From Gammaproteobacteria bacterium (GTDB taxonomy: Bacteria > Pseudomonadota > Gammaproteobacteria > Steroidobacterales > GCA-2729495), in NCBI GenBank assembly GCA_021773815.1, contig JAJFJS010000122.1, forward strand, positions 1 to 43,921: 43,921 nt of DNA, written 5' to 3'. The translations under genes were made by a program, and so were the position numbers. The notes beneath the pieces were generated by a model. That model was not told the DNA's origin. It saw only the letters and a program-made list of their open reading frames with translations, and did not search any database. Positions 23,384-28,878 of this stretch are shown here, one piece after another; position 1 is the stretch's first letter, and every line of letters starts with the position of its first letter.

Positions 23384-23533
23384 GTTGCCCATTACGGGTT
23401 GTTAAATCGTGCGCGGCCGAGAAAAAAGCCGTTCATTCAATGGGTTGCCACTAGACAGGGAGAGGTGTACGCGACAATTCGTGCGCAGGAACGCGGTTCC
23501 GGCGCACCGGACGGGAGCACACCGATCAAACCT

Positions 23534-24442
23534 ATGCTCAGACAGCGAACGCTTAAAAATTCGATCCGCGCGACCGGTATCGGGCTGCATTCCGGCCAGA
23601 AGGTCTACATGACCCTGCGGCCGGCGGCCGAGAACACGGGTATCGTGTTTCGGCGCCTGGATCTCGAGCCGCCCGTGGATATCAAGGCGGAAGCGACGGC
23701 CGTGGGCGACACGATGCTGGGCACGACGCTGGTGTGCGGTTCGGCGACGGTGGCCACCGTCGAGCACCTGATGGCGGCGCTGGCCGGGCTGGGCATCGAC
23801 AATGCGTTTGTCGACCTGAGTGCGTCCGAGGTGCCGATCATGGACGGCAGCGCGGCGCCGTTCGTGTTCCTGTTGCAGTCGGCGGGTATTGCCGAGCAGG
23901 GCGCGCTGAAGCGGTTTATGCGCATCAAGAAAACGATCTGCGTCGAGGACGGCGACAAGCGTGCCGAGTTTCGACCGTACGCGGGTTACAAGGTCAACCT
24001 GAGCATCGATTTCGATCATCCGGTGTTCAAGAAGCATACGCAGACGACCAGTATCGACTTTTCGACGACGTCCTTCGTCAAGCAGGTCAGCCGTGCGCGT
24101 ACGTTTGGTTTTCTGCGCGACATCGAGGCACTGCGTGCCCGCAAGCTGACGCTCGGCGGCACCATGGACAATGCGATCGTTCTCGATGACTACCGCGTCC
24201 TGAACGAGGACGGGCTGCGCTACGAAGATGAGTTCGTGCGGCACAAGATCCTCGACGCGATCGGCGACCTGTACCTGCTCGGGCACAGCCTGCTGGGTGA
24301 ATTCACCGGCTACAAATCGGGCCACGACCTGAACAACCGGCTCGTGCGCGCTTTGTTGGCCGATGCGAGCGCATGGGAGATCGTCACGTTCGACGATACG
24401 AACAAGGCGCCGGTTTCTTACGCCGCTCCCGTTACCGCCTGA
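23534..24442 (+). CDS. lpxC: UDP-3-O-acyl-GlcNAc deacetylase LpxC
   Basis: This 302-residue zinc deacetylase starts with the family N-terminus [20 protein letters not shown]. It has [18 protein letters not shown] near residue 75 with the first zinc His. The C-terminal half has the zinc motif [15 protein letters not shown] near 235 and the catalytic His in [13 protein letters not shown] near 260. It performs the committed step of lipid A synthesis. The reading frame extends 45 codons upstream, but that part is unlike LpxC and the ATG at 23534 fits homologues. No good ribosome site is seen. Confidence 0.96.
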
Positions 24443-24451
24443 TTCATCGGC

Positions 24452-24763
24452 TCAGTCTGTCGGGTGTGCGACGCGCACCCTGACCTGTACGGCACCCGGA
24501 TGGCACTCCCTGCCGAGCGTCAGCAGTCGTTCGGATTCGAACCGCAGGCGGGCGGCCCATTCCGGACCCGCAACCCGCACGATCAGCGTACCGTCGTCTT
24601 CCAGGCTGCAATGAACGACCTCGGCCGCCAGCGCCGGCGCCAAACCCGCGCGGATATGGTCGGTCAAACCGATTTTTGCGCGGGCGCGGGCCGCCAGACG
24701 GCCCAGATCGGACTCCGCAGAACCAATCAATTCGGACAATGATTTGGGGCGATTTCTTGACAT
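24452..24763 (-). CDS. dciA: DUF721 protein, DciA-like helicase loader
   Basis: This 103-residue protein fits the short gammaproteobacterial DUF721 family, with the N-terminal RPKSLSELIGSAESDLGRLA and the KH-like core GTLIVRVAGPEWAARLRFES near residue 60. DciA helps load the replicative helicase DnaB in bacteria lacking DnaC. Assignment rests on family resemblance and on its usual place between lpxC and secA. It faces lpxC tail-to-tail with a 9-bp gap and diverges from the riboswitch-M23 unit. Confidence 0.8.
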   Translation of the reverse strand: MSRNRPKSLSELIGSAESDLGRLAARARAKIGLTDHIRAGLAPALAAEVVHCSLEDDGTLIVRVAGPEWAARLRFESERLLTLGRECHPGAVQVRVRVAHPTD

Positions 24764-24820
24764 ATTACATTAAGTTAAAAGCCCGGAATGGGGAGTCCGT
24801 TCCTTGTCTTCACCGGGACC

Positions 24821-24925
24821 ATTGGGCATAGTCTAGCCCGCAAAAGGCATACCCGTCGAAAGTCGGGGACGCAAAGCCACCGGTCTAATGGTTCTTCCGA
24901 CGATAGCGGGGTTGCCCAATGGGGT
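24821..24925 (+). promoter_or_regulatory. cyclic-di-GMP-I (GEMM) riboswitch
   Basis: The core matches the class I aptamer: GGCATACCC, a stem capped by a GAAA tetraloop, GGGGACGCAAAGCC at 24873, CGGTCTAA, then ATAGCGGGGTTGCC at 24903. GACGCAAAGCC, the CTAA segment and AGCGGGGTT are the most conserved parts of the family. An exact 8-bp closing stem joins ATTGGGCA (24821-24828) to TGCCCAAT (24913-24920). It lies 139 bp upstream of the M23 peptidase start. No terminator with a T run follows, so control may act on translation or by another fold. Confidence 0.93.
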
Positions 24926-25058
24926 TTTCAAGGATGGTTTCCTTCAGGTTGCTGGGCCTGAAAAAGCCGACTACATCATCTGCCGACAAGCGTTCCGGGC
25001 CGTGTGCGGCCAGCGCGATGACAATTGCGCGGATGATACGGGGGTTTAAACGAATCCG

Positions 25059-25979
25059 ATGAAACTGATTCTGCTGACTCAGAGCAGGACGGCCGCGCGT
25101 CATGCCCATATTTCCTGGCCGCTGCTGGCGGCCTGCTCGGCCGTAGTATTGCTGATCGTCGCCGCCGGCACCGGCTATCTTGCGGCCCGCGGGCTGGCGA
25201 CGCCGCAACCGGTGGTGGCCGTCGAAGCGCTGCGCGGCGACCTGGCCGCCCGGCAAGCCGAAATCGGCGAACTGCGGGATCGGGCGCAGGAGCAAATCGA
25301 TGCGCTGGCGGTCCGGCTCGGCGCGCTCAATGCGAGTGCGATCCGCCTCAATGCACTGGGAAAACGCTTGACCGATATGGCCGGTCTCGATGACGGCGAA
25401 TTTGATTTCGACAGCGAGCCCGCACTCGGTGGTCCGCTGGAGCCCGGTGCGACGCCGGCGGCAGGGCAGGTCGGGACGTTCCTGGCCGACATCGATTCCA
25501 TGGATCGGGCGCTGTACGGTCAGGAGCAGCAATTGATCGTACTCGAGCGATTGATGCTGAACCGCAAACTGCGTGACAGTGTCTATCCGAGTGGTCGTCC
25601 GGTCACAGCGGGCTATATTTCCAGCCACTTCGGCAAACGCGCGGATCCGTTTAACGGCAAGACCGCCAGCCATCGCGGCGTCGATTTTGCCGGCAAGCGC
25701 GGCAGCGACGTCGTGGCCGTGGCCGGCGGCGTCGTGACGTTTTCGGGGCCGCGTTCGGGCTACGGCAACATGGTCGAGATTAACCACGGTAACGGCTACG
25801 TCACGCGCTATGCGCATAATGAAAGCAATCTCGTGGCGCCCGGCGACCGGATCCAGCCGGGCCAGAAGATCGCGCTGATGGGTTCGACCGGCCGCGCGAC
25901 CGGCCCGAACCTGCATTTCGAGGTCTGGCACCGTGGGCGTCCCGTCAATCCCCTGACGTTTATTCGCCAGAAGACCTGA
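25059..25979 (+). CDS. M23 family peptidoglycan metallopeptidase, membrane-anchored
   Basis: This 306-residue protein has one N-terminal membrane segment (about residues 18-43), a coiled-coil region to about residue 110, and a C-terminal LytM domain. Zinc and active-site residues visible are H205 and D209 (HRGVDFAG), H253 (RYAHN) and H286 (NLHFEV). The position normally occupied by the first His of HxH is Asn284. Enzymes of this type cut peptidoglycan cross-links in the periplasm; this subfamily is found next to secA in gammaproteobacteria. A cyclic-di-GMP riboswitch precedes it. The ATG at 25059 has only a distant GGGGG, which could suit a regulated start. Confidence 0.93.
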
Positions 25980-26032: not shown

Positions 26033-26061
26033 TTTCCAGCGGTACCCGTTGCCCTTACAAT
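26033..26061 (+). promoter_or_regulatory. possible sigma-70 promoter of secA
   Basis: TTTCCA (26033-26038) and TACAAT (26056-26061) are 17 bp apart in the gap between the M23 gene and secA. The -10 is good (5 of 6) and the -35 moderate. Confidence 0.4.

Positions 26062-26145: not shown

Positions 26146-28878
<2,733 letters not shown>

Follow-up and report, generated by a model that had tools for sequence, protein, structure and literature searches.

A c-di-GMP-I (GEMM-I) aptamer lies upstream of an M23 peptidase gene in the DNA analysed here, and the comparative evidence supports a c-di-GMP-I riboswitch at this position that recurs in a large group of bacteria. The gap between aptamer and gene is filled by a short open reading frame (ORF), which begins in the final bases of the aptamer and whose stop codon overlaps the start of the M23 gene. 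We propose that c-di-GMP folds the aptamer, shuts initiation at this leader ORF and lowers the coupled translation of the M23 gene, a reading that we regard as probable. The leader ORF is new, being absent from the initial annotation of this DNA, which had interpreted the region as a c-di-GMP riboswitch working through competition between a closing stem and a short GGGC/GCCC pairing. The riboswitch stands; switching through the closing stem does not, in view of the promoter DNA, lost pairing and contact base described below, and the evidence favours the overlapping leader ORF over it. In what follows, the window is the whole stretch of 43,921 nucleotides that was analysed. The features of the locus are as follows.

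23399-24442, + strand: lpxC, upstream neighbour (profile match)
24452-24763, - strand: dciA, divergent neighbour (profile match)
24804-24809, + strand: -35 element TTGTCT of the riboswitch/M23 promoter (conserved pattern in 40/40 loci)
24827-24832, + strand: -10 element CATAGT (conserved pattern; transcription start predicted at about 24836-24840, the 5' edge of the aptamer)
24837-24920, + strand: c-di-GMP-I (GEMM-I) aptamer (Rfam; contacts G20 = 24846, A47 = 24873, C92 = 24915)
24908-24911, + strand: GGGG, Shine-Dalgarno-like (3' strand of P3 in the consensus fold; 7 nt before the leader-ORF ATG)
24919-25062, + strand: leader ORF of 47 aa, ATG to TGA (begins within the 3' end of the aptamer; TGA shares bases with the M23 start codon)
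25059-25979, + strand: peptidase of the M23 family with a LytM domain and a single hydrophobic segment near the N terminus (Peptidase_M23 profile, E 1.9e-35; translation)
26146-28878, + strand: secA, downstream neighbour (profile match)

A covariance-model search of the region with RF01051 (c-di-GMP-I) returned a significant match at 24837-24920 on the + strand, with 74 bits against a cut-off of 35, which agrees with the near-consensus GEMM-I aptamer described earlier. Its 3' end is 138 nt from the M23 gene start. The P2 and P3 helices with a GAAA tetraloop are present, as judged from an alignment and pair counts over 32 sequences including the window. The bases of Vc2 that touch c-di-GMP are G20, A47 and C92 (excerpts of PMC4744006 and PMC3764141), and the equivalent positions of the window are G, A and C, the c-di-GMP set. 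Among the M23-linked aptamers, window included, A47 and C92 are found in 40/40 and G20 in 36/40. The P1 helix of the window keeps the pair G14-C93 and is poor at 13-94, which is C-C. By fixed spacing the standard 13-94 pair is absent in 10/40 loci, some of them perhaps because of a wrong register.

It might be argued that the aptamer has decayed or that it binds another ligand in this species, of the RF03167 or the cGAMP type. The weakened P1 of the window and the presence of A20 in four relatives point that way, as does the cmscan comparison, in which RF03167 (c-di-GMP-I-GGC) is the clan-best match on the aptamer (67.3 bits; cut-off 59). We nevertheless hold this explanation to be quite improbable, given the G20, A47 and C92 of the window and its RF01051 score, and given that RF01051 is the best Rfam family in 16 of 20 relatives examined (RF03167 in 3, no match in 1, L073). 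The RF03167 ligand variant was rejected for the window, although its score passes the cut-off: position 47 is G in the consensus of that model and A in the window and in 39/39 aptamer-bearing relatives. We take "GGC" in the family name to mean residues 20, 47 and 92. The four M23-linked aptamers with A20 in Vc2 numbering (L093, L082, L084 and L077, at 2805-2887 in each) belong to one clade of the M23 tree; A20 is typical of cGAMP-sensing GEMM-I RNAs.

The arrangement was then followed in 80 named orthologue loci, taken from an M23 search of genome contigs. An aptamer was found just upstream of the M23 gene and on the same strand in 39 of them (E below 1e-12). The aptamer model was built from a 32-row alignment in which 12 rows, the window among them, are M23-linked aptamers, so that part of the matches in this set and in the whole-genome set of 30 loci is true by construction; the alignment did not include L004, L006, L007 or L017, the last being identical in sequence to L016. 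Weak matches were dropped, 6/45 rows in the 80-locus search and 5/28 rows in the whole-genome search. The latter gave an aptamer in 23/30 M23 loci, window included, many of the genomes being shared with the 80-locus set. In further species, held out in that none of their 51 loci is in the model alignment, the aptamer was present upstream of M23 in 38/51. Recurrence upstream of orthologous M23 genes, by which the initial annotation proposed to judge the riboswitch, is seen in both the 80-locus and the held-out set. Gaps between aptamer and gene measure 27-152 nt (with the L095 start moved from a GTG to an upstream ATG).

The M23 tree, built from 81 proteins, unites 38 of the 40 aptamer-bearing rows in one 42-row group (support 80, not starred). 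The other two, L115 and L121, lie outside the main group, and the aptamer label needs four changes on the tree. The 80 loci include some from Luteibacter, Dokdonella and Pseudomonadales-type bacteria, and in these no aptamer was found upstream of M23. Two loci, L073 and L074, from the same genomes as L044 and L046, carry the promoter within the 300 nt before the M23 start, followed by a diverged aptamer-like sequence with a P2-like hairpin. L073 has no Rfam match, and L044 and L046 gave weak scores of 12.7 and 11.8 with the aptamer model. The sequences of L073 and L074 look like those of a decaying or altered riboswitch.

The target is, as had been annotated, a membrane-anchored M23 gene between lpxC and secA (E 1.9e-35; one hydrophobic stretch). 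The initial annotation did not mention dciA, which lies on the minus strand; its phrase "next to the divisome" describes gene order only. A promoter-like site precedes secA at 26033-26061, and elsewhere in the window 5018-5393 matches RNase P RNA class A with 314.9 bits. Membership in PF01551 is indicated by the profile match and by the zinc ligands H205, D209 and H286, which are present in 81/81 aligned proteins, as is H253. The first His of the HxH motif has a catalytic role. In the window this residue is Asn (N284; residues 284-286 = 25908-25916), where the five PDB relatives whose alignments are shown have His. The zinc ligands were assigned by analogy with H210, D214 and H293 of LytM (excerpts of PMC4594094). 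Asn occupies position 284 in 36/39 loci with an aptamer versus 7/41 without. A link between N284 and the aptamer was considered and rejected: the tree needs two N284 changes and four label changes, too few for a test, and as the two share a clade we claim no causal connection. The active site of this putative peptidoglycan-cutting enzyme appears to be changed, as in most of the group.

We searched for a promoter using the pattern TTGnnn-N15..19-YATWnT, at most 70 nt upstream of the aptamer. It was present in 40/40 aptamer-bearing M23 loci versus 85/8000 random windows from the same loci. In 33/40 loci the reported match has an N17 spacer and a CATAGT or CATATT that ends 2-6 nt before the aptamer. 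A scan with a generic promoter consensus left the riboswitch/M23 promoter below its cut-off and so did not report it. From this conservation, transcription would start 4-8 nt past the -10 element.

The promoter bears directly on the closing stem. The two arms of the "exact closing stem" of the initial annotation, CCATTGGGC at 24819-24827 and GCCCAATGG at 24914-24922, are perfectly complementary over 9 bp in the window. The two arms also pair in the minimum-energy fold of a stretch beginning upstream at 24780. Switching would on that account oppose this long P1 stem to the GGGC/GCCC pairing within its 5' arm. We give almost no credence to it. The 5' arm, CCATTGGGC, lies inside the promoter pattern found in 40/40 loci and so probably precedes the transcription start. 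Averaged over the other 39 loci, 4.3 of the 9 positions of the arms pair, compared with 3.4 by chance; the longest run is 6 (L075), and it is at most 4 in the remaining relatives. Finally, the 3' arm, GCCCAATGG, contains C92 and C93, and the stem would tie up the contact base C92. We rejected 24819-24827/24914-24922 as a closing helix on these three grounds, and the GGGC/GCCC competition within its 5' arm was discarded with it. The remark that the expression platform has no terminator was in contrast accurate: a scan of the window found no terminator-like site between the aptamer and the M23 gene.

What the gap does contain is the leader ORF. Its TGA (25060-25062) overlaps the M23 ATG as ATGA at 25059-25062. 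Counting gaps of at least 60 nt, which left out 2 of the 40 loci (L115 and L121, with shorter gaps), the frame that ends at the M23 start was open in 37/38, where dinucleotide shuffles predict 10.6 +/- 2.5; frames 0 and 2, the remaining forward frames, were open in 10 and 4 of 38. In the held-out species the leader frame was open in 33/37 (11.5 +/- 2.6 expected) and the other frames in 11 and 5, so that the two sets together have it open in 70/75 gaps. Three held-out gaps of 264-269 nt are open as well, with ORFs of 88-90 codons from the aptamer edge to an ATGA. One reverse frame was open in 26/38 gaps of the first set but in 13/37 of the second. The shuffle comparison overstates the significance of these counts because the loci are related; the held-out set and the controls carry more weight.

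M23 genes without an aptamer served as a control and gave no clear excess: the frame was open in 10/39 versus 9.0 expected (2 of 41 loci, L105 and L116, were dropped for too little upstream sequence) and, in the held-out set, in 6/13 versus 3.8 expected. Two loci, L070 and L072, have kept the promoter with neither an aptamer nor a leader ORF. Their M23 gene begins about 35 nt past the -10 element, and this short leader looks like a natural deletion.

The leader ORF starts at the aptamer edge in most loci. An ATG, GTG or TTG in the right frame was found between -1 and +4 relative to the aptamer end in 35/40 loci of the first set (34 by script; L075, whose stop lies 7 nt into M23, was added) and, scanning from -2 to +8, in 26/37 held-out loci. 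The exceptions number 5/40 in the first set (L108, L081, L079, L131 and L103, the last with a broken frame) and 11/37 in the held-out set. Position matters: an 11-nt window at the edge holds an in-frame start codon in 33/38 and 26/37 loci, while windows 15-75 nt downstream hold one in 4-7/38 and 2-8/37 (2/34 for one window). A GGRG (GGGG or GGAG) stands 6-11 nt before the start codon in 60/61 edge-starting ORFs, and the consensus fold places it in the 3' strand of P3. A Shine-Dalgarno sequence in or next to the aptamer together with a stop/start overlap, the hallmarks of a riboswitch with a coupled leader ORF such as that of ppe2 (see below), was thus found in 35/40 and 26/37 loci.

In Woeseiaceae and neighbouring groups the gaps are mostly 119, 122, 113, 101 or 95 nt long, differing by multiples of three. 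Among ten leaders of the Woeseiaceae group, no single-base codon difference involves a stop in the leader frame, compared with 84 and 62 such differences in the other two frames. The synonymous share in the same leaders, 0.319 in the leader frame versus 0.222 and 0.406, shows no consistent excess, and in four smaller groups the leader frame has the highest share in two, the middle one in one and the lowest in one; these data thus give no evidence of leader-peptide conservation. A Pfam search with the leader peptide of the window returned no match. This pattern fits a frame that would be kept for the passage of ribosomes rather than for its product.

We propose the following mechanism. With the promoter directly in front, the M23 transcript would have the aptamer at its very 5' end, and the 3' edge of the aptamer would double as the translation start region of the leader ORF, with the GGGG of P3 as the Shine-Dalgarno site. 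The start codon would lie 6-11 nt past this GGGG, and the frame would run to the M23 start, which it would meet in an ATGA, a TGATG or a short overlap. Bound c-di-GMP is expected to lock P3 and P1 and hide the initiation site. In its absence, ribosomes would start on the leader ORF, translate to its stop codon and use the overlap to move on to M23, so that M23 translation would rely at least partly on ribosomes arriving from the leader ORF. An untranslated leader may in addition expose the mRNA to Rho. The prediction is an OFF switch, with the M23 peptidase made at low c-di-GMP. We expect this direction with reasonable though limited confidence, which we lowered slightly because the terminator-less Vc1 acts as an ON switch. 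ON control is unlikely here, though far from negligible, and a response in neither direction is rather improbable.

Folding energies computed for the 38 leaders revealed no clear switch, and they neither support nor refute the relay from leader ORF to M23. In ensemble folding, the Shine-Dalgarno sequence of the leader ORF was mostly paired even without ligand (mean unpaired 0.17). Holding the leader unfolded made the M23 site more open in 19 and less open in 10 of the 38, and the fold of the window leader has a z of -1.16.

Alternatively, a distal platform may let the riboswitch control the M23 ribosome-binding site itself, the open leader frame being a by-product or an accessory. A GGGG or GAGG close before the start is indeed present in many M23 genes of the Woeseiaceae group, which could allow direct translation. 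In the ten Woeseiaceae-group leaders a small stem encloses the GGGG close to the M23 start, and a hairpin between aptamer and gene shows changes on both sides (the pair 128-152, for example, is G-C in 5 and A-U in 5). Inspection by eye of the alignment for the group to which the window belongs did not reveal this hairpin. As a distal platform would leave both the open frame in 70/75 gaps and the start codons at the aptamer edge unexplained, we judge it unlikely. A second possibility, Rho-dependent or RNase-linked control, holds that the ligand keeps the leader untranslated and exposed and that the overlap with M23 is incidental. It is in keeping with the lack of a terminator-like site between aptamer and gene, and translation of the leader ORF would presumably protect the leader; it does not by itself require the stop/start overlap of most loci. 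As the sole explanation it is rather improbable, and as an added layer it is compatible with the leader-ORF relay, which remains our preferred reading.

Extended to the whole clade, the proposal is that the aptamer itself is the ribosome-binding site of the leader ORF with no separate platform, that this ORF serves solely to bring ribosomes to the target start it overlaps, that the frame is selected while the peptide drifts, that the regulated gene encodes a membrane-anchored M23 protein whose active site has one residue changed, and that the one lineage with A20 senses cGAMP or a mixture of ligands. This generalization could well hold in full, but we offer it tentatively.

The genome of the window has 7 c-di-GMP-I matches and 17 GGDEF matches. 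One of these other aptamers, L004:1501-1626, lies upstream of pilM (type IV pilus) and is preceded by a TTGCCA/CATATT stretch. Among 24 c-di-GMP-I loci not linked to M23, L036 (aptamer at 1501-1586) has an edge ORF of 40 codons that ends in TGATG, and the edge ORFs of L004, L009 and L035 end in GTGA. In two further loci (L001:1501-1587 and L019:1501-1585), the start codon at the 3' edge of the aptamer is in frame with a long downstream protein. These two aptamers may hide the ribosome-binding site of the target itself.

The comparative evidence points to a specific relay, in which a ribosome-binding site embedded in the aptamer would drive a leader ORF overlapping the target gene. Such a relay would place a peptidoglycan peptidase gene under the control of a lifestyle second messenger, in a group of bacteria that includes the Woeseiaceae. 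Overlapping leader ORFs that start at the aptamer edge are worth seeking behind other riboswitches whose expression platform is apparently missing.

Our literature search, which covered papers outside the founding GEMM target lists and in part only excerpts of them, returned no paper on a c-di-GMP riboswitch with an M23 target or with a coupled leader ORF. The aptamer of the window shares with V. cholerae Vc1 and Vc2 (RF01051) the aptamer score, the G20, A47 and C92 residues and the P2/P3 architecture. For Vc1, likewise, the excerpts of PMC4744006 describe a transcript that begins at the aptamer, with no terminator or anti-Shine-Dalgarno sequence found. Unlike Vc1, the window has an M23 gene as its target and a leader ORF that runs from the 3' edge of the aptamer and overlaps the target start; the terms "leader peptide" and "upstream open reading frame" were sought in the Vc1 paper (PMC4744006) and not found. 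Vc1 loses expression when c-di-GMP falls, which makes it an ON switch, whereas OFF is predicted for the window, and in c-di-GMP-I riboswitches that lack a terminator the route from binding to expression can be obscure, as the authors of the Vc1 paper state for Vc1 and Vc2 (PMC4744006).

With regard to the target, the nearest published parallels that we found, as described in the excerpts of the respective papers, are EagA of Erwinia amylovora and zmpI of Clostridioides difficile. EagA is also an M23 peptidoglycan hydrolase regulated by c-di-GMP, but control is exerted on transcription of the znuA-eagA operon, and the excerpts of PMC7705223 mention no riboswitch for eagA. The C. difficile gene zmpI (PPEP-1) likewise encodes a metallopeptidase and is regulated negatively by c-di-GMP through a class I riboswitch; its product is a Pro-Pro endopeptidase that acts on surface proteins and not an M23 cell-wall enzyme (excerpts of PMC6366702). 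For the mechanism, the comparison is with the B12 riboswitch of Mycobacterium tuberculosis ppe2, where the leader ORF uPPE2 shares an AUGA with ppe2 and is required for its expression (excerpts of PMC11260477). The control of a leader-ORF initiation site by the riboswitch, the AUGA overlap and the OFF relay are alike in the two systems, the last as predicted for the window. They differ in ligand and RNA class, and the ppe2 relay was established by experiment in one organism, whereas ours is a prediction from recurrence in many species within one order.
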